DNA of 64,000 nt. Origin: Turnera subulata (lineage: Eukaryota; Streptophyta; Magnoliopsida; Malpighiales; Passifloraceae). The stretch is taken from contig JAKUCV010000253.1 of NCBI GenBank assembly GCA_028386065.3, positions 1-64,000 of the forward strand, in the 5' to 3' direction. The notes under the pieces were generated by a model. The model saw only the letters and a list, made by a program, of their open reading frames with translations, was not told the origin of the DNA and did no database searches. Shown one piece after another: positions 4,946-64,000 of the stretch (its first letter is position 1; the number at the start of each line of letters is the position of its first letter). The translations under genes and the position numbers were made by a program.

Positions 4946-6553
4946 CTATCTCTCGAATAAGGTGGTAGCCTTAAGTACATGCTTGGATCGTTGATGAGAC
5001 CGTGGTTCCTTTGCTTGCACTATAGCTCCATTATTGTCACAATACAATGGTATTGGATCGTTAATGCTAGGTACCACTCCAAGTTTGGTGATGAACTTCT
5101 TGATCCACACTGCTTCTTTAGCTGCCTCAGAAGCGGCGATGTACTCTGCTTCGGTCGTTGAATCCGTAGTTGTTTCTTGTATGGAACTTTTCCAAGAAAC
5201 TGCACCTCCGCCTAACAGAAAAATGAACCCAGATTGTGACTTACAATCATTCTTATTAGATTGGAAGTTGGCATCAGTATACCCACTTACTTGTAAGTCA
5301 TCTTCTCCATATACCAAGAACATATCCTTAGTTCTTCTCAAGTACTTAAGGATGTTCTTTGCAGCCACCCAATGTTCCTCTCCATGATTGGATTGAAATC
5401 TACTTGCGGGACTTAGTGCAAATGCAACATCAGGTTGAGTACATATCATAGCATACATGATGGATCCTATGGCGGAAGCATATGGTATACTACTCATGCG
5501 TTCTCTTTCTTCTTGTGTTTTGGGGCACATAGATTTAGAAAGGTGCTTCCCATGAACCATTGGGATGAATCCTTTCTTGGAAAGATCCATGCTAAACTTC
5601 TTTAGCATCTTGTCTATGTATGTAGACTGCGAAAGACCAAGCAACTTCTTCGATCTATCTCTATAGATCCTAATCCCCAATATATAAGTTGCTTCTCCAA
5701 GGTCTTTCATGGAGAATTGCTTTGAAAGCCAAATCTTGACTGATTGAAGGATTGAGACATCGTTGCCTATGAGTAGTATGTCATCTACATATAGTACAAG
5801 GAAAATGATTGCACTCCTATTGACCTTTTGATAAACACAAGGTTCATCCTGATTTTGTGAGAAACCAAACTGTTTGATTGTCTCGTCAAGTCGGATGTTC
5901 CAACTCCTAGAGGCTTGCTTCAATCCACAGATGGATCTTTGAAGCTTGCAAACTTTATTGCTATCATTGGATGTAAAACCTTCAGCTTGTGTCATATACA
6001 CCTCCTCGGTCAAGTTTCCATTAAGGAAAGCAGTCTTTACATCTATTTGCCAAATCTCATAGTCATAATGAGCGGCAATAGCAAGCAAAATCCTAATGGA
6101 TTTGAGCATGGCTACAGGCGAGAAAGTTTCATCATAATCAACTCCTTGTTTTTGACGATAACCTTTCGCTACTAGTCGTGCTTTGTAAGTAATCACATTA
6201 CCATCCATGTCTTTCTTTTTCTTGAAGATCCATTTGCACCCAATGGGTTTTACACCTTTGTGTGGTTCTTCCAAAATCCAAACTTTGTTTTCATACATGG
6301 AATCCATTTCAGATTTCATGGCATTCAACCACAAGTCAGATTCTGAACTTTTCAGAACTTCCTCATATCTAGTCGGCTCATTATCTTCTACAAGAGCAAT
6401 ATTCTTGTCCTCGTCTATTAAGAGATTAAGTTTCTCAGGTGTAGAACGTACTCTTGTAGAACGCCTAGGAGCATGTATAACTTTAGGCTCAGTAATTACT
6501 ACATCATCATGAGTAATGTTTACGGGATTAATCGGTTGATCTTCTCCTATTTG
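4946..6553 (-). pseudogene. copia1 reverse transcriptase and RNase H
   Basis: C-terminal half of the copia polyprotein, which copies the element RNA into DNA in cytoplasmic particles. From the N side: a linker, then an RT domain starting near WLNAMKSEMDSMYENKVW and WIFKKKKDMDGN, VDYDETFSPVA, the catalytic YVDD (in YVDDILLIGND), then RNase H with YTDANFQ, SGFIFLLGGGAVSWKS and the acidic TEAEYIAASEA. The frame is open for 462 codons from the internal Met at 6334 and further upstream to a TAA at 6554-6556. It shifts frame at about 4960, inside the conserved KHVL...YHLIRE end. The catalytic motifs themselves look intact. Confidence 0.85.
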
Positions 6554-6681
6554 TTATTCTTGAATTTCTTCAAGATCTATTCTACTCCCACTATCTTCTT
6601 TTAGAAGAAACTCTTTCTCTAAAAAGATAGCATGCTTTGAAACAAACACTTTTTGTTCCAAAGGATTATAGAAATAATATC

Positions 6682-8758
6682 CTATAGTTTCTTTAGGATA
6701 TCCCAAAAATAGCACTTATCGAACTTAGGCTCTAACTTATCCGATACCACTTTCTTCACATATGCATAGCATCCCCATACTCGTATGAGAGAAAGTATTG
6801 GGTTCTTATTCGTCCACATCTCATATGGAGTCTTATTTACCGATTTAGATGGAACTCTATTCAAAGTGTAAATAGCAGTTTCCAGTGCAAAGTCCCAAAA
6901 TGACTTAGGTAAATCTGCAAAGCTCATCATGGATCGAACCATGTCCAACAAGGTTCTATTCCTCCTCTCTGACACACCATTATGTTGTGGTGTAAAAGGA
7001 GGTGTCCACTGAGATAATATGCCATTATCTCTAAGATAAATTTGAAATTCGTGACTTAAGTATTCACCTCCTCGATCGGATCGAAGTATTTTAATACTTT
7101 TGCCAAGTTGCTTCTCTACTTCATTCTTGAATTCTTTGAACTTTTCAAAGGCCTCAGATTTATACTTCATCAAGTACACATAACCATATCGAGAATAATC
7201 ATTGATAAAGGTAATGAAATAGAGATGTCCTCCTCTAGCATGTGTTGACATTGGTCCACATACTTCTGAATGTATTAGTTCCAATACATCAGATGCTCTA
7301 GCACCTTTACCACTAAAGGGTAATTTTGTCATTTTTTCAGATAAGCATGATTCGCATGTATCATATGATTCATAATCAAATGATCCTAAGTTACCATACT
7401 TGTGCAACTTAATCATGCGATTATCACCAATATGGCCAAGACGACAATGCCATAAATAAGAGGATTTCAAACTTTCTTTCTTTGCTCTCTTATTATCAAT
7501 GTTGAAACTTTCTTTATCATAATCAAGAACATAAATTCCATTCACATTTTTGCCAGAACAATAAAACATATTATTCTTGAATAAAGAACAACCATTGTCT
7601 TTACTAATGGAAACTTTGAAATCTTGTTCAACAAGACAAGAAATTGAAATAATATTCTTTGATAAAGAAGGAACATAATAACAATTATTAAGTTCTAATA
7701 CAAATCCAGAAGGCAAATATATTGAATATGTCCCTACAGCTAAGGCAACAACTCTTGCTCCATTTGCAACTCGTAGGTCCACTTCTCCTTTTTTCAGTTT
7801 CCTACTGCTCTTTAGATTCTGTAAATCAGAACATAAATGAGAACTGCATCCAGTATCTAATACCCAATAATGGTTAAAAGCAGTACAATTAGTATTTATT
7901 TCATTCATATTGATACCTAAAGTAGAAACTCCTTTCGACTTCTTGGATTTGACAGAGTTTAAGTAGACTTTGAAATTTCTCTTCCAATGTCGATCCTTTC
8001 CACAATGGAAGCAAGTCCCTTTGGGCTTAGTCTCTTTGGCAACAATCTTGCATTTCTTCTTGATACCCACTTTTGCCTTGATAGTTTTATTTTTCTTAGT
8101 CTTTCCTTTGTTACCTTTGGAAGACTCAATAACCATCACCTCAATTTGATCCTTCTTAAGGGTCGCTTCAGTAGTGTTAAGTATTTTAATCAATTCAAGA
8201 ATTGGTGGCGGTAATCCCATTCATTTGATAATTAAGCACAAATTGTGCAAAAGAATCAGGTAGAGATTGTAGAATTAAGTCTACACTTAACTCTTTGTCC
8301 ATCACAAAACCTAAAGTGGCAAGCCTTTGAATATAACCATGCATCATAAGTGCATGTGGCCCAACAGAGGAACCTTCAGCCATCTTAGAACGAAATAATA
8401 GTTTCGAAATATCATAGCGTTCGGTACGAGTTTGTTTCTGAAACAACTCCTTAAGATGGATGATTATCGTATAAGCATCCATTTCCTCATGTTGCTTTTG
8501 GAGCTCTGAAGACATAGAGGTAAGCATAATGCATGTTGCCTTCTCACTATCTTCAAAATGCTTCAAATAAGCCATTTGTTCCACTGCGGGAACATAATCT
8601 TCAGGCATAGGGGGTACTGGATCATCTAACACATAAGCGATTTTCTCGGATCTCAAAATAATTTTAAGATTCCTAAACCAGTCAGTGAAGTTTGACCCAA
8701 TCAACTTGTTAGCATCAAGTATGCTACGTAGGTTCAATTCAGCGTTGGACATTTTCAA
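6682..8758 (-). pseudogene. copia1 gag, protease and integrase
   Basis: N-terminal half of the copia polyprotein. Gag starts at 8758 or at the second Met, 8752 (MSNAELNLRSILDANKL), and holds a UBN2-type gag domain. A frameshift near 8215 separates it from the remainder. Then come a zinc knuckle (CFHCGKDRHWKRNF) whose last cysteine is Phe, the protease motif VLDTGCSSHLC, a GAG-pre-integrase domain (WHCRLGH...CESC) and the integrase core (LIHSEVCGPM, FINDYSRYGYVYL, LRSDRGGEYLS, NGVSERRNR). The first integrase aspartate, normally HSD, is HSE here. A second frameshift near 6700 cuts the link to RT. Confidence 0.85.
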
Positions 8759-26929: not shown

Positions 26930-28501
26930 CTACTGGCAACGATCATCCCACACGTAAGAGCAATCTTTCCTCAATAGCTTAGTTATGAGACCCGCTATCA
27001 AGGAAAAACCCTCAATGAACCTGCGATAGTAACCAACAAGTCCAAGAAAACTCCGCACCTCAGATGCATTCTTCAGTGGTTCCCACTCCATAACCGCCTT
27101 AACCTTGGCCGGGTCCACCTTAATACCCTCTCTCGACACTATATGCCCGAGAAAAGCCACTTCATCCAACCTAAACTCGCATTTGCTGAGTTTGGCATAA
27201 AGTTGTTTCTCCCGTAGTCTCTGCAACACCAGTCTCAAATGCTCCCCATGCTCGGCCTTACTCCTCGAGTAGACCGGAATATCATCAATGAAAACAACCA
27301 CAAACCGATCCAGAAACTCATGGAACACCCCATGCATCACACACATGAACACTGTAGAAGCATTGGTCAACCCGAAGGGAACCACAAAAAATTCATAGTG
27401 ACCATACCAAGTGCGAAAAGCAGTCTTTGGTATGTACTGTTCTGATCTCCTGACCTGATGGTATCCGAATCGCAAGTCGATCTTTGAGAACGGAGATGCT
27501 CCCTGCAACTGATCAAACAAGTCATCAATCCTAGGTAATGAATACTTGTTCTTCACAGTCACCTTGTTCAACTGCCTGTAGTCTACACACATCCGCATAC
27601 TACCATCCTTCTTCTCAACAAACAAGACCGGGGCACCCCAAGGTGAAGTGCTCGGTCTAATGAAACCCTTTTCTAGCAACTCCTCCAACTGCTTCTTCAA
27701 CTCTTGAAGTTCAGACGGAGCCATCCTGTAAGGTGGAATAGAGATAGGAGCAACTCCCGGTACCAAGTCCATTGTGTACTCAACCTCTCGCTTCGGAGGT
27801 AAACCTGGTAACTCGTCAGGAAAAACATCTGGAAACTCCCTCACTATTGGGATATCCTCCAACCCCGGCACTGGTACCGTAGAGTCCACCACATGGGCAA
27901 GGAATGCATCACATCCCTCCCGAATCATCCTGAAAGCCTGTATAGCTGATATACAACAAGCAGAAAGAGCTCTCCGCTCCCCAACAAACACCAATCTACG
28001 CCCTAAAAGAGAACACAAAGCCATTTCCTTGGCTCGCCAATCTACCACTGCTTGGTGTCTAGACAACCAATCCATGCCAAGAATCACATCAAACTCACTC
28101 AAATTCATAACACTAAGATCAGTGGGAAAACACTTACCATCATACTCAACGAATACGTTCCTATATACCCGATCCACACTAACTATACTACCCGTATGTA
28201 ACCGAACTCTCAAGGGTCTACCTAGGTCATCATCATCACAATCATGTCTAGTCATGTATGCACGTGAAATAAAGGAATGCGTAGAGCCTGGATCAACCAA
28301 AGCATGTGCATGATGACCAAAAACCGTAAATATACCTGCAATGACCTCTGGAGCATTAGTAGCCTCCTCTCTGGTGATGGCATAAACTCGAGGTGTAGTC
28401 GCCTGCGTCGCTCCACCTCTACACCCAGATCCATTACCACGACCACGACCTCTGTAACCATTGCCCCTGCCTGAGCCCGAAGCTACAGAACTCTGAACCA
28501 T
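26930..28501 (-). pseudogene. E2 protease and reverse transcriptase
   Basis: 523 open codons. An aspartic protease domain starts near [18 protein letters not shown] (the usual D-S/T-G is D-P-G) and continues to [19 protein letters not shown]. The RT follows: [53 protein letters not shown], the catalytic FIDD in [12 protein letters not shown], then [15 protein letters not shown] and [14 protein letters not shown] stop at 26930, just after WDDRCQ, separates it from RNase H. The frame upstream is continuous with gag, so this was one gag-pol. Confidence 0.9.
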
Positions 28502-39429: not shown

Positions 39430-42400
39430 TATGGATACTGCTCTCTCATTGGGGACTCAACCTCCCAAGTAGCCTCATTCGGAGAATGACGGCTCCATCT
39501 AACCCGAACCATAGGAATGGTACGACTCCTCAACATAGGTCAAATCATCAGAAACCTCCACCTCTGTCGGGGATACAACATGACTAGGATCAGACCAATA
39601 GCGCCTCAGTATCGAAACATGGATTACATCATGTATGCGCGACAGCTCCTCCGGTAAAGCCAACCTGTAGGCCAGCGGAGCAATCCGCTCCATGATCTCA
39701 TAAGGACCAATATAACGAGGGCTGAACTTGCCCTTCCTCCCAAATCAGATAACACCTCTCCAGGGAGCAACACGGAGAAAAACTCTGTCACCTGCACTGT
39801 ACTCCATCTCCCGACGATGCTTATCAGCAAAACTCTTTTGTCGGTCCTGAGCAGCTCTCAAGCACTGCTTAACTACCTTGATCTGATCAACAGTCTCCTG
39901 GACTAGGTCCGGACCAACCACCTGTCTCAGACCTTCCGCCCATACAATGCCTTATAGGGCGTCATACCGATACTGGAGTGATACCCGTTGTTATAGGCAA
40001 ACTCAACTAACGGTAACGTCTCATCCCAAGAACCACTGAAGTTGAGCACACAAGCTCTAAGCATATCCTCCAGTGTCTGTATAGTCCTCTCTGACTGCCC
40101 ATCGATCTGCGGATGGAATGCAGTATTGAAATTCAGCTTAGTACCAAAAGCTGACTGTAAGCTCCTCCAGAAGTGGGAAGTAAACCTCGGATCCCTGTCC
40201 GACACAATGGATAGTGGAACTCCATGTAGACTGACAATACCCGAAACATACAACCTCGCCAGCTTATCCATTGTATCCGTCTGCTGAATCTGTAGGAAAT
40301 GAGCTGACTTGGTCAACCTGTGAACAATGACCCAGATGGCATCATGTCGACCCCGGGTCCTCGGTAACCCGATCACAAAGTCCATAGTGATATGCTCCCA
40401 CTTCCACTGCGGAATAGTCAAATATCTCAACTTGCCGGCAGGAGCCTGATGCTCGGCTTTCACCTGCTGACAGGTCATACAACGAGCCACAAACTCTGCA
40501 ACATCTTTCTTCATCCTGGGCCACCAATAATGACTCTTCAAGTTCTGGTACATCTTGGTGCTACCAGGATGCATAGCATATGGCGCGTTATGCGCTTCGT
40601 CCATGATCCATCTCCTCAAATCATCGACATCCGGAACACACAACCGATCACCGGTCATCAAAGCACCATCCTCCCGGACATAGAAACTAGAACTCTCTCC
40701 ACCGAGAGCCTTGTCTCGCAACTCTGCTAGATGATGATCACCAAACTGCAACTCCATGATCTTATCCCGCAAGGTCGACCGGATGCTCAAACTGGCAAGC
40801 AACGCCCCAGTAACGTCCACCTCCAACTGTGCATCCAACGACCTCAGCTCCACCAAGGAAGGCAATGCATAAGAAACTGAGTCCTCATCCGCAGAAGCCA
40901 CTCTCTTCCGGCTCAATGCATCTGCAACAACATTGGCCTTGCCTGGATGGTACTCGATAGTACAATCATAATCCTTCAGAAGCTCAATCCAGCGTCTCTG
41001 CCTCATATTAAGCTCCCTTTGGGTCAAGATGTACTTCAAACTCTTGTGATCCGTGAAAATCCGGCACTTCTCACCGTACAGATGGTGTCTCCAGATCTTC
41101 AGAGCAAAGACCACAACAGCTAACTCCAGATCATGGGTCGGATAGTTCCTCTCGTAAGTTCTCAACTGCCTGGAGGCATAAGCAATCACCCGACCCTCCT
41201 GCATCAAAACACATTCCAAGCCCAAACCAGAAGCATCACTGAACACCGTGTACTCCACTCCGGGTCTCGGAACAGTCAAAACCGGTGTAGAAGTCAACCG
41301 ACTCTTCAACTCCTCAAAACTCTCCTGACAACGGTCATCCCAAACAAAAGTACAGCCTTTCCTCAACAGCTTAGTCATGGGACCCACTATTAAGGAAAAA
41401 CCCTTAATGAACCTTCGGTAATAACCAGCAAGTCCAAGAAAACTCCGTATCTCAGGTACATTCTTTGCTGGCTCCCAATCCATGACTGCCTTAATCTTGG
41501 CTGGATCCACCTTAATGCCCTCACCGGACACAATATGCCCGAGAAACGCGACCTCATCCAACCAAAACTCACACTTGCTGAGCTTGGCATAGAGCTGTTC
41601 TTCTCTCAACCTCTGCAAAACCTGTCTCAAGTGGTCCTCATGTTCGGCCTTACTACTCGAGTAGACCAGAATATCATCAATGAACACTACCACAAATCGG
41701 TCCAGAAATTCATAGAAGACCTGTTGCATCATACACATGAACACTGCTGGTGCATTCGTCAGACCAAATGGAAAACCACAAACTCATAATGACCATACTG
41801 AGTGCGGAATGCAGTCTTCGGTATGTCTTGCTCTACAATCCGAACCTGATGGTAACCAGATCGCAAATCGATCTTCGAGAATATAGATGCACCCTGCAAC
41901 TGATCGAACAAGTCATCGATCCTAGGCAAAGGATACTTGTTCTTCACAGTCACCTTGTTCAACAGCCTATAGTCCACACACATCCGCATACTGCCATCCT
42001 TCTTCTTCACAAACAAGACCGGGGCATCCTATGGTGAGATGCTCGGTCTAATGAAACCCTTATCCAACAACTCCTCTTGTTGTTTCTTTAACTCTTGAAG
42101 TTCTGTCGGAGCCATTCTGTAGGGCGGTATAGAAATAGGTGCAACTCCCGGTACCAAGTCAACAGTATACTCCACCTCCTGCTCCGGAGGCAACCCAGGT
42201 AGATCATCAGGAAATACATCAGGAAACCCCCCGAAAAATTGGAATATCCTCCACTCCAGGTACTGGTACCGAAGAATCGACGACATGAGCTAGAAAAGCA
42301 TCACAACCCTCTCGGATCATCCTGAAAGCTTGGATGGCCGAGATACAACACGCCGATAGGGCTCTTCGCTCTCCAACGAACACCAATCTACGCCCCAACA

Positions 42401-42647
42401 GAGAAGACAAAGACACTTCCCTGGCCCGGCAATCAACTACTGCTTGGTGTCTGGACAACCAATCCATGCCTAAGATAACATCAAACTCTCCCAAGTCCAT
42501 GACAGCAAGAACAGAAGGAAAACTCTCACTATCGTACTCTATCGATACATCTCTACAAACTCTATCAACAACTACTATATCACCAGTGGGTAAACGGACT
42601 CTCAAGAGTCTACTAAGGTTATCATCTTCTATGTTATGAGTGGTCAT
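39430..42647 (-). pseudogene. E3 pol: protease, RT, RNase H, integrase, damaged chromodomain
   Basis: Protease C-part ([18 protein letters not shown]) up to a frameshift near 42235. RT N-part follows ([16 protein letters not shown]), with a stop near 42029, then [16 protein letters not shown], and a frameshift near 41760. The longest stretch, 39927-41744 (605 codons), holds the RT catalytic FIDD, RNase H ([18 protein letters not shown]), the integrase zinc domain ([12 protein letters not shown]...CMTCQQ) and core ([31 protein letters not shown]). A deletion of about 31 bp relative to E2 after LYGRK ends it. The C-terminus is open at 39499-39693, but a second deletion (about 43 bp) removes the first part of the chromodomain after DDLTYVEE. 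Confidence 0.88.
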
Positions 42648-42779
42648 GAATGCACGTGGTACAAAAAAGTATGTTAGTATGTTGAACCTGGATCAACTAA
42701 AGTATGTGCATACTGACCAAAAACCATAAATGTACCTGCTATAACCTTTGGAGCATCAGCAGCCTCCTCCCCGGTGATG

Positions 42780-44036
42780 GCATAAACCCTAGGAGCTGCA
42801 GCAGACTGAGTCGCACCCCCGCGGTTCGAAGCTCCAGAACCCCCACGTCCTCGACCCTGTTGTCCGCCACCCCTGTTCGGACCAGAAGAAACAGCACCTG
42901 GCTACAGAACTCTGCACTGTATACTGGGAACCACTACCACCACTATCCTTAATCCACTTGTAACAAGATGAATTCTGGTGTCCCAGCTTATTGCAATACT
43001 AGCATGTATACGAGAATCGTGCCGAGGAACCCTGTCCTTGAGATCCAGACTGATAGGACCGTCCTCCAGAGGATCTTCCTGGTCCACCCTGATAGCTCTG
43101 CCCTTAGGACTTCTTCGAACCTCGGTAAGAAGAACCCTGTCCACTAGAATAATCTGCATCTCCGGCAACAGAGTAATGTCTCTTCTGTCCAGAAGCAGAT
43201 GACTGCTTCCTCTGCTCGGCTGTCCGAGTCTCCTTCCCAATCAACTGAGCTCTCTCAGCATCAAAAGCAGCCTCACAAACTGCCTCCCAAGTCTTATGCC
43301 CTCCACCAGCCACAGCTAGCGCCAACTCTGTACGTAAGCTTTTAACAAACCGCCTACACTTAGTCACCTCATTGGGCACAAACTCTCTAGCATAGGAGAG
43401 AAGGATGCTGAACCGGATCCTGAATGCTGACACCGACTCCTCTAGTCCCTGCTTCACCTCAAGAAACTGTTTTTTCTGCTCCTCCAGAAAACCAACAGTG
43501 AGAAACTCCTTGTAGAATTTCTCCTTGAAATTCCCCCATGGCCTCTCCACAGGCTTCGGTAGGTTGGCCACAAGTTCCTGCCACCATGTCAATGCATATC
43601 CCGTGAACTTGTGTGCCGCAAATTGAGCCCTCTGCTCAGGTGCACAAGTGAACTTCTCCAGAACATTCTCCACCTGGCGGAACCAATCATCAAACTCCTT
43701 GGCTTCGACCTCCTCACCAGATAATTCCTTGACCGCTGACTTATCCATATGCTTATATCCGCTCTCCATACCACCTACTGCAGCAGGTGCTACCGGTTGG
43801 GCACCCTGCTGCTGCTGCTGAAACTGTTGCCACTGCAAGAAAGCCTGATACTGCTGGAACGCTGGGTCCACAACAGGTGGTACGGGTGGCACAACATTCT
43901 ATTCTCCTCCACCTACAGCATTATTCCCTGCTGCATTATTGTTCCCCTATCCAACGGGAACCTGCATCCCCGACACATTGTCGGAGACATGAGTAGAGGC
44001 GTCATCCTCAGCATTGTGCTGCCCCTGGTGATCCAT
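42780..44036 (-). pseudogene. E3 gag
   Basis: Start at 44036 (MDHQGQHNAEDD). The best-preserved gag of the window: a 262-codon stretch (43104-43892) contains PAFQQYQAFLQWQQF, FDDWFRQVENVLEKF, TGYALTWWQELVANLPKP and FVPNEVTKCRRFV. A stop near 43950 splits the N-terminal arm. The zinc knuckle near 42980 reads C-stop-Y-C-N-K-L-G-H-Q-N-S-S-C, i.e. a CCHC box interrupted by TAG. Confidence 0.85.
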
Positions 44037-53617: not shown

Positions 53618-55705
53618 TGATGTATGCTGAAGTGTCCTGCAAGTGCACAGGGTAGTTGTAGTACTCTATCAAGGTCGTATCCATAAGGACTGGGATGAAT
53701 CTGTCACTCCTTACCTTAGATGAATTAGGCTTGAGATAATTAAACAAAAAAGGATTATGGGGTGAGTGCAAATTGAAATTAAATAAAGTAAGAGAATAAA
53801 AGTAATAGTAATGTTGAAGTAGGTGAAAATCAGGTTTTGGTAAAATCTTAGGTATCCAGGGATTCACATGTCATGCCCTTGTCCTCTAAATTGCTCAACA
53901 GCATCATCACAGGTTGGGCCTGTGTGACGCCCTGTGTTTAATTAGAAGTCTTGAAGGGGCTCCCAACCTAATGTACTACCAACGGCTTTCGATCTTATCG
54001 ATAGTTCCCAAAGCTTCCATCTACCCCCTGTCACTAGAGTAGACGTCCACTTAGAGGTGGAGCTCGGTGTTGGTGCTAATTACCCACAGTCTCTCCCTAT
54101 CTTCTTTCGAATGGCTCGGGAGGGAAGGCTGACTATTGTTGGTCTGGCACGCTTGGCTTCTCCTTTCGGTCCTTCACCAAGCTGCCACTAGATTGAAAAT
54201 AGGTTGCTCAATAATCAATCAAGAATCAGTTTAAAAGTGGTGTCATTCTTTCTTGACTGTGTTGTAACAGGCTGAGACACTGCTGAGTCCGTGACTGAGC
54301 CTGTCGAGAACACAAAGTCAATTACACAGATCAGTTCTTACAAGCGCTCACAACCTATAGTGAACCCATTTGTTTTCACTCACAGGTTCCTCCCAAGGTT
54401 CTCACTCATCCTAATGCTTTGGCATCGGTCAAACTAAGGGGATTAAGAATTGGTGTTGAGGCTAATTCCTCAATTAGTTCCTAATTTCTCTCGAAACTAA
54501 GAGCTAAGGGTTGGTTGTTGTTGTTCCAGCAACTATGGTTTCTCCTTTCGGTCCTTCACCTAGCTACCTATAATCATGTATGGGTTTGATCAAGACTCAA
54601 ACATGGAGCAAGTTTGCAACAACCAAACAAGAAAAAACGGTTAAGAACATAGGAAGAGCAATTTATTGCACTAAGAACAGAGACATGCTTCACCCCTTCA
54701 ACCTATGAGGGGTTGTTTAATTCATGCTTAGAATTACAAAAAGAAAGGGGGTAAAGGATAGCATGATGTTTGGAACAATCTGGAGGTTAGGGATAACACG
54801 ATTTCTGCCCAGAAAAAGGTGCAGAATCGTGTTTCCCCTTGAACCTTTTGTTCCAGAACTTCTGCAAGTTTTATGGGTGTTTGATCGAGGGTGAATTCGA
54901 TGCCTGTTCTTCCTTTCTCCTTCTCTTTTATGGTGCAGATTCCTCTCTTCTCTTCTCTCCTACGTGCTGGATGGTATGGCAGTTGGGTAAGTTGAGCTTC
55001 AGTTGCCCATCTTGCTCCTCGAGGTAAGGCAGCTTGGGAGGTGTGCCGAATGGATGAAATCTACAAATCTACAGATTTTAGAAGACTTAGGGGGAGGATA
55101 TTGGTTCTTTAATTGTTAAATTCTTTGGGTGTGATGATTATCCCCTCTTTCCCATGCTTAAAGTATTCTGAGTTGTTCAGGTCATAATTGCAGAGTTGAA
55201 AGTTCTGCTAAGTGGTAAAGCTCTGCAAGTGGCTGAGTTTAATATTCTTATTTTTGCATTCTGGTCATCTGCAGATTCCACAGGCTGAGCATGTGCTGGG
55301 CCTGTGCCTGAGGCTGTATGCGATTTCTTCCCATTTCCTGTGCAATTGATTTCAGCTCTTTTTGAGATTGATGGAGTGGCGTGATGGCTTCGTGGATCAA
55401 GGCAAAGGTGGTGAAATCCAGTGGATAACTTGTGATTGGAGGGGGATTCGTGGCCTTTTACTAATTCTGCAGAGAACAACAGGCTGTCAAACAGGCTCAT
55501 GCTGTGTCAGAGGTTGTTTCATCGAATTCTCCAATAAAATCTCCAAAATTCTTCAAAATACACCTGGAATCACTAATCATACAGCAAGGGATGGGATTTA
55601 AGGGAATATGATGAAATAATGCAAAGTTAGGCATATAGTCATGATAAATCGAGAGAAAGTATATCTAAAATTATGCCTAAAACTATGCATATTTCATGTG
55701 CATCA
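53618..55705 (-). repeat. Solo LTR S (2088 bp) inserted in copia2
   Basis: Bounded by TGATGTATGCTG at the left and ...CATGTGCATCA at the right, i.e. TG...CA with short imperfect inverted ends, and flanked by CTGTC (53613-53617) and CTATC (55706-55710), a 5-bp duplication with one change. The copia2 integrase reading resumes right after it (YIISRLPVPHLHYQ). It has no coding capacity and no internal domain, so it is a solo LTR. A 530-bp fragment of the same family is at 33379-33908 in the opposite orientation. Orientation is inferred from the shared U5-side end. Parent family not identified. Confidence 0.75.
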
Positions 55706-56097
55706 CTATCTATATCATTAGTCGGCTTCCGGTTCCCCATCTTCACTACCAAATCCCATATAGTCTTCTCTGTGGCATGCCTCCTCCATTCGATCATATT
55801 AAGGTTTTTGGTTGTCTATGTTTTCCAAATGTAACTGCCATCATGTCTCATAAGTTATCCCCACTTTCTGTATCTTGCATATTTCTTGGCTTTTTTGAAG
55901 GTTACAAAGGCTATCGTTGTTATGATTTTTTGCACGAAAAAGTCATTTTGTCGCGACATGTCATTTTTCATGAAGAAATTTTTCCTGTATTTACATATTT
56001 TTCATCTCCATTACCTAAATCTTCTTCTCTTGGAAATTTTGTCAATCCTGCTAATATGATTCCTATTTCCAGTTTTAGAACCCTCTCTCCACCGAAC
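55706..56097 (+). pseudogene. copia2 integrase C-part
   Basis: Continuation of the copia2 polyprotein after S: VYIISRLP-type start, then PYSLLCGMPPPFDHIKVFGC, KLSPLSVSCIFLGF, YKGYRCYDFLHEKVILSRHV and FHEEIFPV, the standard end of copia integrase before RT. The frame ends at 56097, where LTR B begins. Confidence 0.8.
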
Positions 56098-56270
56098 TGT
56101 GAATACCCGACCCAAAATCACTTGAGCCTATTCACCTAATCCTTTCACCTTCTTCCTCGGTTCAATCCCATGTCATTGGAGTCGCCACCCAAATTTTATT
56201 AAGGGCAAAATTTGGGAAAAACCTTTTTGGTTCTTGGGACAGGGACGGGCGCGTTGGGACTGAGTCCTAA
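56098..56270 (-). repeat. LTR B, left part (split by Harbinger)
   Basis: Ogre/Tat-like LTR end: plus-strand TGTGAATACCCGACCC..., GGAGTCGCCACCCAAATTTT and AAATTTGGGAAAAACC match LTR A from 20506. No PBS lies left of it; copia2 does, so it is a solo LTR or the edge of an element oriented into copia2. It continues at 62402. Confidence 0.7.
56268..56270 (+). repeat. TAA target duplication, left
   Basis: TAA directly before the Harbinger left end, repeated at 62402-62404. TWA is the usual PIF/Harbinger target. Confidence 0.65.
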
Positions 56271-56295
56271 AGGCGGGATGTTTGGAACGGTGGAC
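56271..56295 (+). repeat. Left terminal inverted repeat of Harbinger
   Basis: Shares G-TTTGGA and TGGAC blocks with the right end (62377-62401, minus strand). The match is imperfect, so the exact edge is uncertain by a few bases. Confidence 0.5.
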
Positions 56296-56456
56296 TTACT
56301 GTTCACGAGGGACGCGAGTCCAATCGGTTTGGGACAAAAATGAATTTTCTCGTCCACTCGAAATGCTGTGGACAGAACAGAGTCCCAAGGACAGCACTGT
56401 TCTCGTGCCGTCTTTGCCCTTGCCATTTTTTCATAATGCCCAAAAGACCAGGGCAT

Positions 56457-56464
56457 ATAAAAAT
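56457..56464 (+). promoter_or_regulatory. TATA box of the transposase gene
   Basis: TATAAAAA in GGGCATATAAAAATGAC, followed 50-150 bp downstream by a CT-rich patch (56510-56660), the common plant core-promoter pairing. Confidence 0.5.
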
Positions 56465-56829
56465 GACAACAAACCATACATTGAGCCTCATTCACAGGTA
56501 TGTTTTCTCCTCTCCTTCCTCTCTCCCGTCTCTCTCTCGTCTCTTTTCTCTCCCGTCTGCAGCTCTCTCCCGACCGATTTCTTCTCCTCTCTTCCTCTCT
56601 TCTCCACCTCAGCCTCTCCTCTTCCTCTGCCTTTTGTCACTGCTTGTCTTCCTCTTCCTTTCGTTTTGCTCTGTATGTGGGTGTGCGTTGTTTTGGTGAT
56701 GTGGGTTTTGTGTTGTTCTTTGCATGCTGTGTTGTGTAATTGCTTTGTTTATGGTGGGTTTGGGTTTATGACGGTGTATTGTGGGTTGAAACCTTATCTG
56801 CATAATTCGTAGTGTAAAGAGTCCGATCC

Positions 56830-57520
56830 CCAATTATCCAAGAACCCTAATTTGCAAATACCCTAAATTGCTTTGTCTGCACTGTAATTGGCATGTACCC
56901 TTTGAATTGACATTGATTATCGTTGTCCGATGCTTCATTTACCCTATATGCTTTGTGATTTGTCGAAATTCCCAAATTTTGCAGAATCCCTAAATTGATT
57001 TGTCTGACACTGTAATTGGCATGTATCCTTGGAATTGACACTGATTATCGTTGTCCGATGCTTCATTTACCTCAATTGCTCTGTGATTTGTCAGAATCCC
57101 CAAATTTTGCAGAAACCTTAATTTGCAAAAACCCTAAATTGATATATCCGACACTGTAATTGGCTTGTATCCTTGGAATTGACACTGATTATTGTTGTGT
57201 GATGCTTCATTTACCCCAATTGCTTTGTGATTTGCCGGGATCCTTAAATTGTCCAAGAACCCTAATTTGCAAATACCCTAAATTGCTTTGTCTGACACTG
57301 TAATTGGTATGTATCCTTGGAATTGACACTGATTATTGTTGTGTGATACTTCATTTACCCTAGATGCTTTGTGATTTGTCGTAATCCCCAATTTTTGCAG
57401 AAACCCTAATTTGCAAAAACCCTAAATTGCTTTGTCTGGCACTGAATTTGGCATGTATCCTTTCGATTGACACTGCTTATCGTTGTCTGATGCCTCATTT
57501 ACCCCAATTGCTTTGTTTGC
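56830..57520 (+). repeat. 144-bp minisatellite with telo-box motifs, about 5 copies
   Basis: The marker CACTGATTAT occurs at 56911 (as CATTGATTAT), 57039, 57183, 57327 and 57471 (as CACTGCTTAT): spacings 128, 144, 144, 144. Each unit also has TTCATTTACC, GCTTTGTGATTTGTC and ACCCTAAATTG. Exact AAACCCTAA telo-boxes lie at 57129, 57401 and 57417. It lies in the leader of the transposase gene. Confidence 0.8.
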
Positions 57521-57895
57521 TGTGATGTATAGTTTTCCTACACATGTTTCAATTTATTGATATGTTTACTGTGATGTATACATTGTGTTACCCTCAATTG
57601 ATATGGGAAACCTGTAATTGCTCTCTATGACAGTGTAGTTGTAGTATGTAATTGGATATATGGTATATAGGCTGGAAACTCATACATAGCTAATCCCCAC
57701 CTGGTTGGGTAGGCTGACTTTGTGCACAACGCCACGTACTAAATATCCATTTACATCGTCTTCATATTTTTTACTTCATGTGAGAACCCTGAGTTATGTG
57801 AAGCATGTGTGACTTGAGTTGCTCAATATGCATTCATGACTTTGTGCTGAAATTCTGCTTTCTGGGTGAACAGTTTCTGGTTGATAAAAGGGCTG

Positions 57896-58101
57896 GTAAG
57901 TTTGAGAAACTTCATACCAGGTTGCTGATAGGTTATCGTCAAGGTTATCCAAGGTATGCTGGTTCTTTTTTCCTGCTTTTGAATGATGTTTCTGTGGGGC
58001 TGAAATGTTGTTGTGGTGAATATGTTGTATTGTATTCTTTGTTAGCATGGTTGTCAATGTGCATATTGTAATTATTTTTTTCCTTTTGGTTGTTTTTATA
58101 G
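57896..58101 (+). other. Predicted 5'-leader intron of the transposase gene
   Basis: Donor GGCTG|GTAAGTTTGAG and acceptor GTTTTTATAG|ACCGACTATGG, seven bases before the ATG. T-rich, 206 bp. Prediction from splice signals only. Confidence 0.5.
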
Positions 58102-58108
58102 ACCGACT

Positions 58109-59426
58109 ATGGACCGCCGCGAACGTGCTAAACTTGCTGCTATGATGTGTGTCATATGGAGTATGAATTTAGAAATTTTGTTGAGTTGTGTTGCATTTGT
58201 AGTCGCATATATGCATACAATAGGTGAGAGAAATATGAATAGGAGAGCATTGAGAGATAGAAGCATGTCCACGTACCAAAGTAGGAGGAAAGTGATTGAG
58301 GACATGTGCAAGAGATCGGACCAAGATACAATTGCAAACCTTAGGATGGACATGAATGCATTTGCTAAATTATGTGAGTTACTTAGGGTGAAAGGTGGAC
58401 TTAAATCAAACGGTGCAGTAGAAGTAGAGGAGCAGGTAGTTATTTTCACACACATCTTAGCACACCATGAGAAGAATAGGGTGATGCAGACTAGGTTTGA
58501 GAGGTCTGGTGAGACAATAAGTAGGCATTTTCATGCTGTGTTGAAGGCGCTAATTCGTGTGCAGAAAGAGTTGTTTGTTAAGCCTGAACCTGTGCCTGAG
58601 GACTGCACCGATAGTAGGTGGAAATGGTTTAAGGGTTGTTTAGATGCATTAGATGGTTGCTACATAGATGTCACAGTTCCTGACTCTGTGAAGCCTAGGT
58701 ATAGAAGCAGAAAAGGTCACATATCAACCAATGTGTTAGGCATTTGCAATAGAGACATGAATTTCATTTATGTCTTCCCTGGGTGGGAAGGGTCTGCGAC
58801 TGATGCAAGGGTGTTGCGTGATGTGATTGGGAGAAGGGGCGGATTGCAGGTTCCCATGGGTAGGTTCATAAGTAACTTAACCTTTATAATTTGTTTATAT
58901 TTCATAAAAAACTAACTGACTTGATACTTAATAGCAAAGAACACTTGTAATTGTTTTAGGTAATTATTATTTGGCCGACGCTGGATATACACACGGTCCT
59001 GGTTTTTGTGCTCCTTACAGAGGGGTGAGGTACCACCTCAAAGAATGGGCTACTTCTGGGCCAAGAATGCCAAGAAACCGAGAGGAATTCTTCAACATGA
59101 AGCATGCAATGGCAAGGAATGTCATTGAACGTTCTTTTGGGTTATTAAAAAAAAGATGGGCAATTCTTAGGAGTCCATCTTTTTACCCAATTAGAACCCA
59201 GGGTAGGATAATCATGGCATGTTGCTTATTGCATAACTTTATTAGAGCTAACATGTCTGTTGATCCGGAGGAGAACACGATTAATGAGGCTCCTAACACG
59301 GATGGCGATGATTCAGAAGAGCCTACTGAGTACATTCAAAGTGTTCAGACAAGTGATGAATGGATAGCTTGGCGTGATGACCTTGCACAGGAGATGTTTG
59401 ATGATTGGACTGCCAACCGTGCATGA
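58109..59426 (+). CDS. PIF/Harbinger transposase (DDE_Tnp_4, HARBI1/ALP1-like), one intron
   Basis: Cuts and joins the transposon ends in the nucleus, with the Myb-like partner binding DNA. Exon 1 is 58109-58859 and exon 2 is 58960-59426; the intron has GT at 58860 and AG at 58958-58959 and keeps the frame, giving 405 residues, usual for the family. The N-terminal part (residues 1-120) has a hydrophobic stretch and LRMDMNAFAKLCELLR, as in plant ALP1-like proteins. Catalytic residues: D182 (LDALDGCYIDV), D232 (GWEGSATDARVL) and E307 (ARNVIERSFGLLKKRW). DAGYTHGPGFCAPYRG is a family signature. The tail is acidic (TDGDDSEEPTEY). The start is the first in-frame ATG after the leader splice site. 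No stop or frameshift seen. Confidence 0.9.
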
Positions 59427-59722
59427 GCCGTCTGGCTTAAAACAATTTTCCAAAATTACATTCATGTGTATTCAATATTTGTGTGGTGGACAATAATTAT
59501 AGATTCTCCATGACTGTATTATGATGATTCAATTCTGTTTGTTATTGATGGACTGCCAAACTTGATGCATTGTGTGATTGTTGTTGGACTGAATAATTTA
59601 TTTCATAAATGTCATTGATGTTTTATTGGACTACTTGTGTAATCTGATTGATATGTGATTGTTGGTGTGTTTGTTGGTTTACTCCACTGGTTGTATGATG
59701 TGATTATCGGTTTAGTGTAAGC

Positions 59723-60658
59723 ATGGGAGATAGGAGGGTCTGGACTGATCCAGAGGTCGATGCCTTAGTCGACATTCTGGAGGAATTGGTGGCTGAGGGT
59801 CACCAAGTTGATGCAGGGTCATTCCGCCCTGGGTCCATAACCCAGATTGTGACTCGCATGAAGAAAAAATTCCCCAACTGCGGGCTTGTCGCCAACCATG
59901 TCAGGAATAAGATGAAGCGATTGAAAGCTAAGTACTTCGCAGCTCAGGAAATGGCGAATACCAGCGGCTTTGGATGGAATTCAGAGAAGCACTGCGTTGA
60001 GGTGGATGCACCGGACATCCTTGAAGCGTATCTCATTGTAAGTTCAGACCTACACCATTCTTGTTGCTTGTTTTCATATTTTGCTAGTTTCAATGCTTGC
60101 TTTATTGTATTTAACATAATTTAAATGTGTTTGCCACTTGTAGAAATACCCTTCAAGGGAGTATGTGTGCGGCCGAGCCTTCCCGCAGTTCCCCAAGCTT
60201 CAGCTCATTTTCGGCGTGATAGGGCTATTGGAGACCATGCTGAAACCCCCGAGGAAGCAATGGCCAACATGCTGGAAGAAGAAGTTGCCGATACTGCAGC
60301 TGCATCCAACAATGACCCTACTCCAACTGTTACTGCCGCCAGTACAGCTGCACATGGCGGAGGTGCCGCCTCTTCCTCTGTTGCACCTGATGCAAGTATG
60401 GCGTCGGGTTCATGCGGCAGCAGGAAGAGGAAGGCCGTCCCTGCTGCAAATGAAGCACTGTGGGCATTGACAGACGCTATTGTGCACGGATTTGAGTCTC
60501 AGGGCGTGCACATGAGTGACATTGCTGCTGCAATTAGAGGAAAGGATTCGCCAGTGTCATTGGGCGAGGAGTTGAGGAAAATGGGCATTACGGCAACTGA
60601 TGTCGTCAAGGTTGTGATGGCGATGGGCAAGCAGCCTGAAGTTGCAGCGTATTTCTAG
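59723..60658 (+). CDS. Myb/SANT-like DNA-binding partner of the transposase, one intron, one frameshift
   Basis: PIF/Harbinger elements encode a second protein with a Myb/SANT-like fold that helps DNA binding and nuclear entry of the transposase. Exon 1 is 59723-60037 (105 residues: VWTDPEVDALVDILEELVAE, VTRMKKKFPNCGL, NHVRNKMKRLKAKY, SGFGWNSE). Donor GTAAGT at 60038, acceptor TTGTAG ending at 60143. Exon 2 starts KYPSREYVCGRAFPQFPKLQ. At about 60215, inside the conserved IFG-R/K-DRA motif, one base appears missing; the next frame continues DRAIGDHAETPEEAMANML to a stop at 60656-60658, with an Ala/Ser-rich linker and a C-terminal helix. It may be a real mutation or a base-call error. Confidence 0.8.
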
Positions 60659-61148
60659 GAGTTGGATGCAGAACAGAAAGTGGAGTTTGTCTCCAGCCTT
60701 TTGGGGAAGTAATATGGGTTGCTGATTAGTAGGTGCGGCCGTTTTTGGTACAGTATAACATTAGTAAATATGAAAGTAGCCTACTAACCTCTTAGCAAGT
60801 TAGGAATTAACCCCTCTAGCAGTTTAGATATTAACTGCATATTTAGTCATCAATGCTATGCAATTTTGGATATTCCAATGGTAGTTAGTCATGGCATTAT
60901 GCATTTTGTAGGCATGACATATTATGTGACATGGTTCACATCTGCACCCTTCTATATGTAGACATATTTGCAGGAATGGATGTTGGTTGTGGCGTAGTAA
61001 TGAATGCCATCTGTTTGCATTTAACTTGTGTGGAAATGTTGTGTATGGTTTGGGTGCTTCCATTGGCTGGATTGTTTGGTGGAGGGTGCATTTTGCAGGC
61101 CCTTCCTTCTGCTTATACAATGTGCTTTGTGTTGCATTGTTTGTCAAT
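60659..61148 (+). other. Intergenic part of Harbinger between Myb-like gene and third ORF
   Basis: T/G-rich, no convincing ORF. It may contain the terminator of the Myb-like gene and the leader or an intron of the third ORF: a TTCATTGTAG|GTGGGAACC acceptor-like site precedes the ATG. Confidence 0.4.
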
Positions 61149-61547
61149 GTTGTGCTTTCATGGTTGTACGTGTAACCATGATTTCGGTTCATTGTAGGTG
61201 GGAACCATGGGCAAATATAAGTACTACGTTGTGTATAACGGGAGACGCAATGGTGTGTATGACAATTGGGATGAGGTTAAGTTGCAAGTCGATTCATTTC
61301 CGCATGCAAGGTTCAAAGGTTTTAAAACCTTGCAGGAAGCACAAGTTNGTTGTGCTTTCATGGTTGTACGTGTAACCATGATTTCGGTTCATTGTAGGTG
61401 GGAACCATGGGCAAATATAAGTACTACGTTGTGTATAACGGGAGACGCAATGGTGTGTATGACAATTGGGATGAGGTTAAGTTGCAAGTCGATTCATTTC
61501 CGCATGCAAGGTTCAAAGGTTTTAAAACCTTGCAGGAAGCACAAGTT
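61149..61547 (+). repeat. Exact 199-bp tandem duplication around an N (likely assembly seam)
   Basis: 61149-61347 and 61349-61547 are identical as far as I can read, at a period of exactly 200 bp, with the only N of the window at 61348. The duplication repeats the first ~47 codons of the third ORF. Confidence 0.9.
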
Positions 61548-61787
61548 GCATATGTGCTCAGCGAGCAAAGATGGGTGCGTGATAATGCCCATATTTTCGA
61601 TGACAATCCGCCAACCCCGACTGCAAATACGTTCGAGCCTTCAAATATACCAATGCACAATGACACAGGCAATTTTGAGGTCTTGGGAGTTGCATTAGAG
61701 GGTCATGTGAAGTATGCAGACTTACTCAAAGTGGGAATTGGGTTTATTTTAGCATTATTAGTCATGGTGATTGTCAAATATTTGTAA
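61407..61787 (+). CDS. Small protein with RNase H1-type hybrid-binding (viroplasmin-like) domain and C-terminal membrane segment
   Basis: 126 residues. Residues 4-50 match the HBD/Cauli_VI fold found at the N-terminus of eukaryotic RNase H1 and in caulimovirus viroplasmin: YYVVYNGRRNGVYDNWDEV, with W21 and FKGFK (36-40) at the usual RNA:DNA hybrid-contact positions, and an LQEAQVAY helix. A Pro/Asn-rich linker (65-90) follows. Residues 106-123 (LLKVGIGFILALLVMVIV) look like one membrane-spanning tail segment. No RNase H catalytic domain. A second start at 61207 in the duplicated copy is probably the same gene. It lies inside the transposon ends, same strand as the transposase. Function unknown. 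Confidence 0.75.
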   Translation: MGKYKYYVVYNGRRNGVYDNWDEVKLQVDSFPHARFKGFKTLQEAQVAYVLSEQRWVRDNAHIFDDNPPTPTANTFEPSNIPMHNDTGNFEVLGVALEGHVKYADLLKVGIGFILALLVMVIVKYL

Positions 61788-62270
61788 GGGCTACTTAAAC
61801 GTATTGAGTACGAACTCGGATGTTTGTATTACCTATGAATCAAGCTTTTGTTATCAATACTTATATTATGAAATTATCGCAAACACAATTATTCATGTTG
61901 TAGATGGCATAAGCCGAATATTCATACTTGTCTTACCTCATGAAATACACTTACAATATAAATAGTATTCAAAACAAGTCAAGTAAGTACTAGTCAAATT
62001 TGGAGGAATAAAGTTTTAACATAACTCTTCAAATCAAATTTAAATACTCATAAATATCATATTTATTAGAGAGTAGTCAAAAAAATGTATTTTTATATTC
62101 AAACCAAATTAAATTAAGAGTGTTTTTATGTATCACTAAATTATAGTATCTATATTACATTCATTTATTAAGTCTAAAAAATCCATATACTTTATACTTA
62201 ACCACTTCTTTCAGCACCAAGGGCAATATAGACATTACTGCATTTAGTCTCGAGCTCTGTACAGCTAACC
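61788..62270. other. AT-rich 3' tail of Harbinger
   Basis: No ORF. Several ATATTA/AAATTTAAA stretches; presumably non-coding 3' region and transcript end for the third ORF. Confidence 0.5.
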
Positions 62271-62338
62271 AAACATGATTCAGTACAACAGTCCAGCGGA
62301 GTGTCCACCAATCCAAACGCTACATTGGACGACACTAT

Positions 62339-62384
62339 TGTCCAGTCCAGTCCAGTCCAGTCCAATCCAGTCCAGTCCCGTCCA
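62339..62384 (+). repeat. (TCCAG)n subterminal repeat
   Basis: About nine pentamers TCCAG/TCCAA/TCCCG next to the right end. Similar GGAC units appear singly near the left end. Possibly transposase or partner binding sites. Confidence 0.65.
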
Positions 62385-62401
62385 GGGATCCAAACGCACC
62401 C
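62377..62401 (-). repeat. Right terminal inverted repeat of Harbinger
   Basis: Minus strand GGGTGCGTTTGGATCCCTGG, followed on the plus strand by the TAA duplication at 62402-62404. Confidence 0.6.
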
Positions 62402-64000
62402 TAAGGCTACATGGTCGTGGCGAACGAAAGACATGGGATCGGGGGTTCGTCACGGATGGGAAGGTGTTAGGCACCCATCCGTGTTGGGTCGAAACCTTGT
62501 GAAGTTGCAAAGTACAAGTGTGCCTTATGCAGGTGTGCAAGTGGGGAAACAAATCACATAAAAATAACAAAATTGAATTGGAGGGGTAAGAGAAGAAGGT
62601 TCGGAACAAAAAGGTAAAATAAAAATATTTGGGATTGAGTCTCCACCACTAGAGACCACCTACGTACCCTGGAAACCGGGTTCAAAGCCCACACAGTTCT
62701 TGACATGGCATCATAGCAATCACATAATCAACAAAAGCATCATCAAGTAACGATCAATAAAGTGCGCAATAAAAAAAAAGGGTTGGAATACTTATCTCGA
62801 TTTTTGGACAGAATCTATAGTCGTCTTCTACTGGATTTTGGACAATGCAAATGGCCGATTCAACTTCTGGTCTCAACAGTAAAGTTGTAGGTCGCCCTCT
62901 TGGTTTTCCACAGAACCTAAGATCATAGCAATCTGACTTGTAGAACTAGAGATATGAATTATTTTCTATGACTGCTTGCATCAGGTCCTTCTACTCACAT
63001 TGTTCACCTTCTTGGCTCCTAGATTGCTTTTGATTGCTTCCTCCTCCTGGTTTCCTCCGGCTGGCTTTCTTTTTTATGCTCTCCCACAAAATTCCTCTAG
63101 AGTTTCTGCCTATAGAAATGTTTCTAGGCTGGGAGAAGTATAGTTTCTCCAAGCAAACAAAACTTATGGGGGGTGTGTGTGTAGTGAGTGATCCCCCGAA
63201 ATGTGAGTGAAGGGTCCTATTTATAATGTTCTGGGAAGCCTAGGGGCGTGGACTTGCTTAATGGTGAAGATTATGCCCGAAAATCTGGTCCAAGACCGCG
63301 TAGGATCGAATTAGAAACAAAATCGGAGAAAATCGGCAGTTCTGGGCACCTATGACCGCCGCTGCCGGCGGTCATGCTCTGGATGACCACCAGTACTGCC
63401 GGTCATGTGAGGAAGACCGCCAGCACCTGGCGGTCGTCGCGAGAGGACCGCCGGTCACCCCACGTGTCACTCGTTCTTTCCTTTTTTGACCCGCAATTCC
63501 GCCTAATTCAGCTCTAACTCGATCCTACCGCGTAATTAACCCAGAATCACTCAATTACTTGATCACCACTCCCCTAAATCATTCCTAGACTGATTGATTA
63601 CACATTGATACCCATTTTAAGCAAAATCATACCAAAAAACACAAAGTCTACTTAAATGATGATTTAACTCTGATTTTCCACGAATATTAGAGCTAAAATT
63701 AATCTGCAAGAATTGTGCTAATGGGCTAATCAAACTCTGGAGAATTAACTTGGCCTTTAAACCTATTTTTAACCTAAGAATAAATCATCTCAATATACTT
63801 GGATTAAAGAATAAATAAAAGGCCCAAATGATATATTCCATCCTAAATAAACCTTATTATATATTTTATTCTAAGATTAAAACATCTTATTAACCCTAAA
63901 GTTCAAATACATGAAGGTCTAAATTTACCAAAATACATCATTTCTACTAAGTTAAATTCATGACATGTCTTAATCCTAAGATTGAATCATCTCATTGATT
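62402..64000 (-). repeat. LTR B, right part, continuing off-window
   Basis: Collinear with LTR A from about 20680 to 22120: GGGGGTTCGTCACGGATGGG, AAACCGGGTTCAAAGCCCAC, a TATA box at 63218-63225, the GACCGCC/GGCGGTC inverted-repeat cluster (63354-63460) and the TCATCTCATT end block. The LTR start lies just beyond 64000. Confidence 0.75.
63218..63225 (-). promoter_or_regulatory. TATA box of LTR B
   Basis: TATAAATA (minus) in ACATTATAAATAGGACCC, same context as LTR A. Confidence 0.6.

Follow-up and report, generated by a model that had tools for sequence, protein, structure and literature searches.

Most groups in a survey of PIF/Harbinger transposons (PHIS) have two ORFs, the second encoding a Myb/SANT protein or, in ISL2EU, a YqaJ protein, according to the available part of that survey (PMC4482050). 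A PIF/Harbinger element near the right end of a 64-kb stretch of Turnera subulata DNA (contig C227 of this species' own 518.7-Mb assembly; hereafter, the window) raises the question of whether such transposons can have a third gene and, if so, what that gene might do. A first-pass annotation, made from the DNA letters alone, had pointed to a third same-strand ORF in this element and had suggested that it was either a captured host gene or an accessory. We find that the ORF is, with a probability of roughly 0.6, conserved as the third gene in a large lineage of plant PIF/Harbinger elements, that is, a three-gene lineage, with a putative tail-anchored product that would bind RNA:DNA hybrid or double-stranded RNA (dsRNA).

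The genes of the element and its right terminus lie on one strand in the order transposase, Myb-like gene, hybrid-binding-domain (HBD) gene, right terminus (Table 1), and the HBD ORF is thus indeed a third same-strand ORF, downstream of both usual genes. The two transposase exons score 29.8 and 50.1 bits with PF13359 (cut-off 24.8), and the Myb-like gene scores 45.5–46.5 bits with PF12776 (cut-off 23.6). The features that tie the element to PHIS are a DDE_Tnp_4 transposase, a second gene encoding a Myb/SANT protein (Myb_DNA-bind_3), and, in siblings, short terminal inverted repeats (TIRs) with a 3-bp TWA target duplication; in sibling L051, the TIRs start with GGG and the duplication is TAA. 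The feature that sets it apart from PHIS is the recurrent third gene.

Table 1. Features of the element and of its third gene, in window coordinates.
Feature	Position	Strand	Evidence or comparison
PIF/Harbinger element, left-truncated by ~7 nt relative to the intact 5962-bp sibling L051:1511-7472	56226..62402	+	blastn; element-free sites L057-L061
Transposase exon 1, DDE_Tnp_4 N-terminal part	58109..58859	+	PF13359, E 5.4e-07; splice sites by eye
Transposase exon 2	58960..59426	+	PF13359, E 3e-13; splice sites by eye
Myb/SANT-like gene exon 1	59723..60037	+	PF12776, E 7.5e-12; splice sites by eye
Myb-like gene exon 2, with a disrupting frameshift and in-frame stop codon	60144..60713	+	Translations; comparison with L051 and other copies
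Conserved non-coding block, ~190 nt, between Myb stop and HBD gene	60729..60916	+	Present in 27 of 30 loci
Assembly artefact, identical to 61349-61547, with one N (61348) between the two	61149..61347	.	Self-comparison
AG of conserved splice acceptor, 9 nt ahead of HBD start codon	61396..61397	+	46 copies compared
Third gene, HBD/tail-anchor protein (predicted anchor), 126 aa plus stop	61407..61787	+	ORF, PF01693, genome recurrence, dN/dS
RNase H1-type hybrid-binding domain, residues 5-46	61419..61544	+	PF01693; 3bsu by phmmer, E 6.4e-09; Foldseek probability 1.00
Hydrophobic C-terminal helix, ~residues 104-124, with small-xxx-small motif G112xxxA116	61716..61778	+	Kyte-Doolittle; predicted model
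Right terminal inverted repeat, reverse complement GGGTGCGTTTGGATCC..., then TAA	62382..62402	-	Same terminus in L003/L051, L004, L012

Comparison with siblings and with element-free copies of the host repeat defines the ends of the element. L051 (contig C2063), which is 98% identical to the window copy, has GGGTGCGTTTGGATC at both ends of its 5962 bp and TAA on both sides; both TIRs and the TAA on either side are intact also in L053, and the window copy has the right end only. Homology between the window copy and L051 in blastn (98.2% identity over 5129 aligned columns and 96.6% over 1058) begins only at 56226. A left end at TAA+GGGCAAAATTTGG, near 56201, was considered and rejected, as this sequence is part of the host repeat and also occurs in element-free copies. 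Specifically, ATTAAGGG and then a like stretch are present in all five transposon-free copies of the host repeat that were read (L057–L061), identical in L060 and differing in the other four. Because homology starts at 56226 and element-free repeats carry the supposed left end, the alignments indicate that the window copy lacks the outermost ~7 nt of its left terminus, together with the target duplication on that side and part of the flank. The first-pass annotation had placed the ORF inside TAA-flanked ends: this holds on the right, where the element stops at 62402 and TAA follows, but not on the left, where the proposed end belongs to the flanking repeat.

The ORF does not lie outside the true right end. 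The right terminus is located ~516–794 nt beyond the HBD ORF in 19 of 30 loci, and in the other 11 the end motif has no match there; the motif was matched in 21 loci, two of which (L006 and L010) were left uncounted, since their sole matches, at +135, are not ends. The base triplet following the 19 right ends is TAA or TTA in 17, TGA in L028, and TCA in L030. The window copy is probably non-autonomous, and copies free of its defects (the loss of the left end and the broken Myb-like gene) exist. The host repeat (56140–56225 and 62403–62560) is high-copy and, by its look, probably an LTR retroelement; the right flank of the element, searched against the own genome, gave 2830 candidates, of which the best 40 matches were scored. 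The 5′ leader of the element contains four to five tandem copies of a ~144-nt unit (window positions 56832–57557, spacing 127–144), and, by cross-matches, L051 has a similar array.

One irregularity of the window copy concerns the third gene itself. Positions 61149–61347 and 61349–61547 are identical over 199 nt (100%) around a single N at 61348, and the same 199-nt repeat was sought in sibling L051 and is absent there. A tandem duplication of the HBD gene, with a partial copy at 61207–61347, was rejected on the strength of the exact repeat around the N. Because this repeat flanks a single N, the partial copy is, most simply, an unmerged assembly joint and not a gene duplication.

The 126-aa product of the third gene has the PF01693 domain (E 4.4e-18; 65.7 bits, against a gathering cut-off of 21) as the sole domain found in a Pfam search, with no nuclease and no RNase H catalytic domain. 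The ORF thus is what the first-pass annotation had described, an HBD with W21 and an FKGFK motif (F36-K37-G38-F39-K40) and a C-terminal hydrophobic segment, without a nuclease. The first Foldseek match of the predicted model is the human HBD, 3BSU (probability 1.00; TM-score by target 0.73–0.76; E only 0.03–0.07), and sequence identity to four 3bsu chains is 46–51% over 44–49 columns. Confidence in the model is uneven (mean pLDDT 70.1, pTM 0.43): the block of residues 1–60, comprising the HBD, has pLDDT 81–91; the linker is disordered, with pLDDT <50 over residues 72–103; and a long C-terminal helix follows. In the phmmer alignment to human RNase H1, W21 corresponds to W43, K37 to K59, and G38 to K60. 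Among 22 diverse copies, which are 39–98% identical to the window protein, the W43 equivalent is present in 22, the K59 equivalent in 20, and glycine at the K60 place in 22; the 17 invariant positions all fall within residues 1–56, and the linker differs among copies in both length and sequence.

The resemblance to the RNase H1 HBD (human 3BSU and yeast 1QHK) therefore extends to fold, sequence, and the W43 and K59 equivalents, but the third-gene protein lacks the RNase H catalytic domain, has glycine at the K60 equivalent, and has an added C-terminal hydrophobic helix. The W43A and KK59/60AA substitutions are reported to compromise hybrid binding by human RNase H1 (PMC10639055, in the part available), and a second partly available source (PMC7657459) reports that the human and fly enzymes prefer hybrid and that the yeast domain is tighter on dsRNA. 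Judging from the conserved residues, the third-gene domain is likely to bind RNA:DNA hybrid or dsRNA, and with glycine in place of K60 its affinity or preference may differ. A protein database search returned no plant element protein, with two matches in one search; a second search gave 36 matches, of which 34 combine the PF01693 domain with RNase H, the others being PF01693 proteins of 78 aa and 188 aa.

The C-terminal segment forms, in the model, a helix over residues 91–125, with low confidence over 91–103. The maximum of the Kyte-Doolittle profile (19-residue window) lies near the C terminus and is 1.8–3.2 in the 42 open copies other than the window's; the helix of the window copy is identical to that of L002. 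All 22 aligned copies have a hydrophobic C terminus and a [GS]xxx[AG] motif, and across them the helix is kept while the linker changes. The C-terminal tail is short and in most copies contains one or two lysines. A single hydrophobic helix at the extreme C terminus is the arrangement found in both the Kyte-Doolittle profile and the model, and the product probably has the predicted anatomy of a tail-anchored protein. Of the earlier term "tail-anchored", then, the hydrophobic helix is borne out, and the anchoring itself is predicted. Two copies of the protein could pair through the small-xxx-small motif.

Recurrence in the genome argues for a gene that belongs to the element. We found at least 182 HBD places in the own assembly, the window's included, by a search with the 126-aa protein (the best 150 of 293 candidates scored, 149 being used after the artefact copy C227:61207 was dropped) and a PF01693 search (the best 150 of 279). 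These were compared against 150 Myb places and 143 transposase places among the matches listed, the latter being the best 150 of 187 matches less seven second fragments of places already present. The same-strand upstream partners of the 182 HBD places, among the matches listed, are transposase and Myb in 94, Myb only in 19, transposase only in 11, and neither in 58; an opposite-strand neighbour within 8 kb occurs, among the matches listed, at none of the 182. Seen from the transposase, at least 103 of the 143 places have an HBD no more than 8 kb downstream, against ~0.2 expected by chance (hand arithmetic from counts and genome size), and at least 96 of the 117 places with transposase and Myb have an HBD downstream, the other 21 being without one among the matches listed. 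Two places (C4297 and C5206) have the HBD upstream, not downstream, of a same-strand transposase, among the matches listed.

Three places scored as incomplete in the first lists proved, on reading, to comprise transposase, Myb-like gene, and an HBD gene whose product ends in a hydrophobic segment: C5878, which had no partner among the matches listed, and C1347 and C2851, where the HBD was absent from the matches first listed. The places read included one of the 21 transposase–Myb places without a listed HBD (C1347) and one of the 58 partnerless HBD places (C5878). The three-gene architecture holds down to 39% protein identity, and the HBD gene occupies the same position in elements with transposases only ~50% identical, which argues against the chance capture of a host gene that had been envisaged. 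All of these data, like those on selection below, come from one genome, and the place counts are lower bounds. With at least 94 places at which both partners accompany it, the ORF recurs in sibling elements and, as had been proposed, has the standing of a third gene in PIF/Harbinger.

Comparison between subfamilies indicates purifying selection. The median pairwise dN/dS of the HBD gene between subfamilies is 0.20 for the whole gene (190 of 703 pairs), 0.13 for residues 1–60 (145 of 703), 0.54 for the linker (229 of 703), and 0.29 for the helix (215 of 703). The set comprises 38 distinct ORFs with open frames only, from 43 of 50 loci, and pairs with dS of 0.05–1; omitted were L005, L010, and L027 (internal stops), L012 and L013 (cut short), L029 (start codon lost), and L050, which the motif missed and which is the same copy that is open as L052. 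In 11 elements with all three genes read, the median dN/dS is 0.12 for the transposase, 0.09 for Myb, and 0.20 for the HBD gene (31 of 55 pairs; the other 24 were unusable, with dS <0.05 or saturation in some gene). Among young copies the picture differs: in six chosen groups, 34 of 42 pairs have at least as many non-synonymous as synonymous differences. The sequences of the young copies thus appear close to drift, as expected for transposons, on which selection acts during activity and which decay after insertion. The neutral decay that the first-pass annotation had named as a sign of chance capture is absent between subfamilies (dN/dS ~0.2), although young copies come close to it. A chance ORF or one-off capture is rejected by genome recurrence and dN/dS together.

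The history of the HBD gene does not wholly follow that of the transposase. The Spearman correlation of identity with that of the transposase is 0.69 for the HBD (n = 80), against 0.90 for Myb. In deep pairs, HBD dS is well below transposase dS (window versus five elements: ~0.6–0.8 against 1.4–2.3). This mismatch in identity and dS could have arisen if subfamilies had exchanged 3′ parts or if synonymous sites were constrained. In five pairs from different subfamilies, the HBD ORF aligns end to end at 78–87%; in the same pairs, the ~200–290 nt before the ATG are unaligned in three and partly aligned, at 62–65%, in two, and 200 nt or more after the HBD stop are unaligned in four of the five. 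Because the flanks of HBD ORFs that align end to end mostly do not align, recent exchange of the whole 3′ half is disfavoured.

Signals upstream of the ORF suggest how it could be expressed. In 45 of 46 copies, a (C/T)AG followed by G precedes the HBD start by 7–16 nt; the exception, L013, has AG followed by T. Acceptor and start are most often 9 nt apart (31 copies); of 45 copies, 34 have a distance divisible by 3 and 11, drawn from several subfamilies, do not. Because the spacing is not a multiple of 3 in these 11 copies, an in-frame Myb–HBD fusion by splicing is unlikely as the common design. The conserved non-coding block has 86% mean column identity in 18 aligned copies, all from nearer subfamilies (18 of the 27 loci with the block; identical blocks and a few others were omitted), and the intron downstream of it is much less alike. 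At its end the block runs into a sequence resembling a splice donor (GTAAGT in some subfamilies). An RNA gene in the block was considered and rejected, the block having neither covariation indicative of RNA structure nor an Rfam match. We read the block as a candidate promoter and leader exon of the third gene, and, as far as these sequence signals tell, expression of the HBD gene probably involves splicing of an intron in the 5′ leader of its mRNA.

The role that we consider most likely, though at less than even odds, is the shielding of element RNA from silencing. The N-terminal RNase H1-type domain would grip RNA:DNA hybrid or dsRNA; the disordered linker would join it to the single C-terminal hydrophobic helix; and the helix would insert in a membrane, leaving the domain exposed to the cytosol or nucleoplasm. 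Duplex RNA or hybrids derived from the element would be held in this way at the ER or nuclear-envelope membrane and shielded from RNA silencing, and expression of the transposase would be protected. In such a scheme the protein could act on R-loops or on element transcripts, as the first-pass annotation had suggested for an accessory. This role comes first by analogy with VANC-carrying transposons and caulimovirus P6. P6 is a silencing suppressor. VANC proteins are described, in sources available in part (PMC10398659, PMC13317346), as anti-silencing proteins of VANDAL (Mutator-like) transposons; they resemble the third gene in being encoded by an accessory gene of a plant DNA transposon, and we propose them as analogues in purpose only, as, unlike the third gene, VANC recognises DNA motifs and acts on methylation, and a common domain is not claimed. 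If the anti-silencing role is true, it is a parallel to VANC of VANDAL by a different mechanism. As to molecular type, we tentatively suggest, by the same analogy, a new one: a membrane-tethered, probably dimeric sensor or sponge of duplex RNA or hybrids that counters silencing and has a module in common with caulimovirus transactivators.

The frequent linkage of the HBD to transposase and Myb, together with the conservation of the C-terminal helix, would also suit a transposition co-factor, which would tether the element to the nuclear envelope by way of R-loops or hybrids on its transcribed DNA and aid excision, repair, or reinsertion. The soluble part of a tail-anchored protein is commonly on the cytosolic side, however, which weighs against a co-factor, and we regard this role as doubtful even with the preference of the animal domain for hybrids (PMC7657459, in part) in its favour.

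Structure matches suggest a different comparison. Five of the first six viral structure matches of the model come from plant pararetroviruses (transactivator/viroplasmin or ORF VI proteins) and are weak (E 0.015–0.062), and the third viral match is a protein named transactivator/viroplasmin from a Lactobacillus phage. The third-gene product might, like the caulimovirus transactivator/viroplasmin (P6/TAV), be a translation or RNA-handling factor, helping element mRNAs at ER-bound ribosomes: contacts of the TAV domain with eIF3 and ribosomal proteins and a function in polycistronic translation are described (PMC7102451, in the part available), and the elements have three genes in series. P6/TAV has the PF01693 domain according to the same source, and shares the context of a plant parasite. 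We nevertheless consider a TAV-like role unlikely. The acceptor before the HBD start suggests that the HBD gene has its own spliced mRNA, which would make polycistronic translation needless for it, and the protein is far shorter than TAV (126 aa, against 420–531 aa for the matched full-length viral models) and does not have the full P6 architecture. A tail anchor is in turn absent from the available description of P6/TAV (PMC7102451).

A protein directed at the host and acting on an organelle or the endomembrane system, for example on mitochondrial or plastid nucleic acids, would be compatible with the short lysine-bearing tail, which could fit several membranes, and with mammalian RNase H1, implicated in mitochondria (PMC3750045, in part); there is no clear reason for a transposon to keep such a gene, and we rate this role as improbable. 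A captured host gene fragment or functionless passenger spread by hitch-hiking is very improbable and already largely refuted: the near-drift of young copies and the precedent of capE, a captured gene with a PF01693 domain within a Pleurotus Helitron (PMC4289320, in part), which is a fungal element without the Harbinger gene set, speak for it, and against it stand the presence of the HBD across subfamilies with ~50% identical transposases, the constraint on domain and helix (dN/dS ~0.2), and the kept splice acceptor.

Purifying selection on the third gene across subfamilies implies a part of the PIF/Harbinger life cycle that is still undescribed. In open-licence PMC full text, as far as the sources were available, we found no report of an HBD gene in Harbinger and no description of an HBD module with a hydrophobic tail in a transposon; an earlier notice in Repbase or in subscription papers is possible. 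The gene might also have a bearing on annotation. Short "RNase H1 N-terminal domain" proteins occur in annotated plant genomes, and the third gene might explain them.

The window also contains other mobile sequences. A retroelement polyprotein fragment (55696–56139; PF25597, E 1.1e-23) lies immediately to its left. Eight ORFs of at least 250 aa are present in the window: five match retroelement families, two are without a Pfam match, and one is the transposase. Retroelement genes of Copia type and Ty3 type, the type names being read from the Pfam families, are located on the minus strand at 4946–8220, 26930–28501, and 39927–43892.
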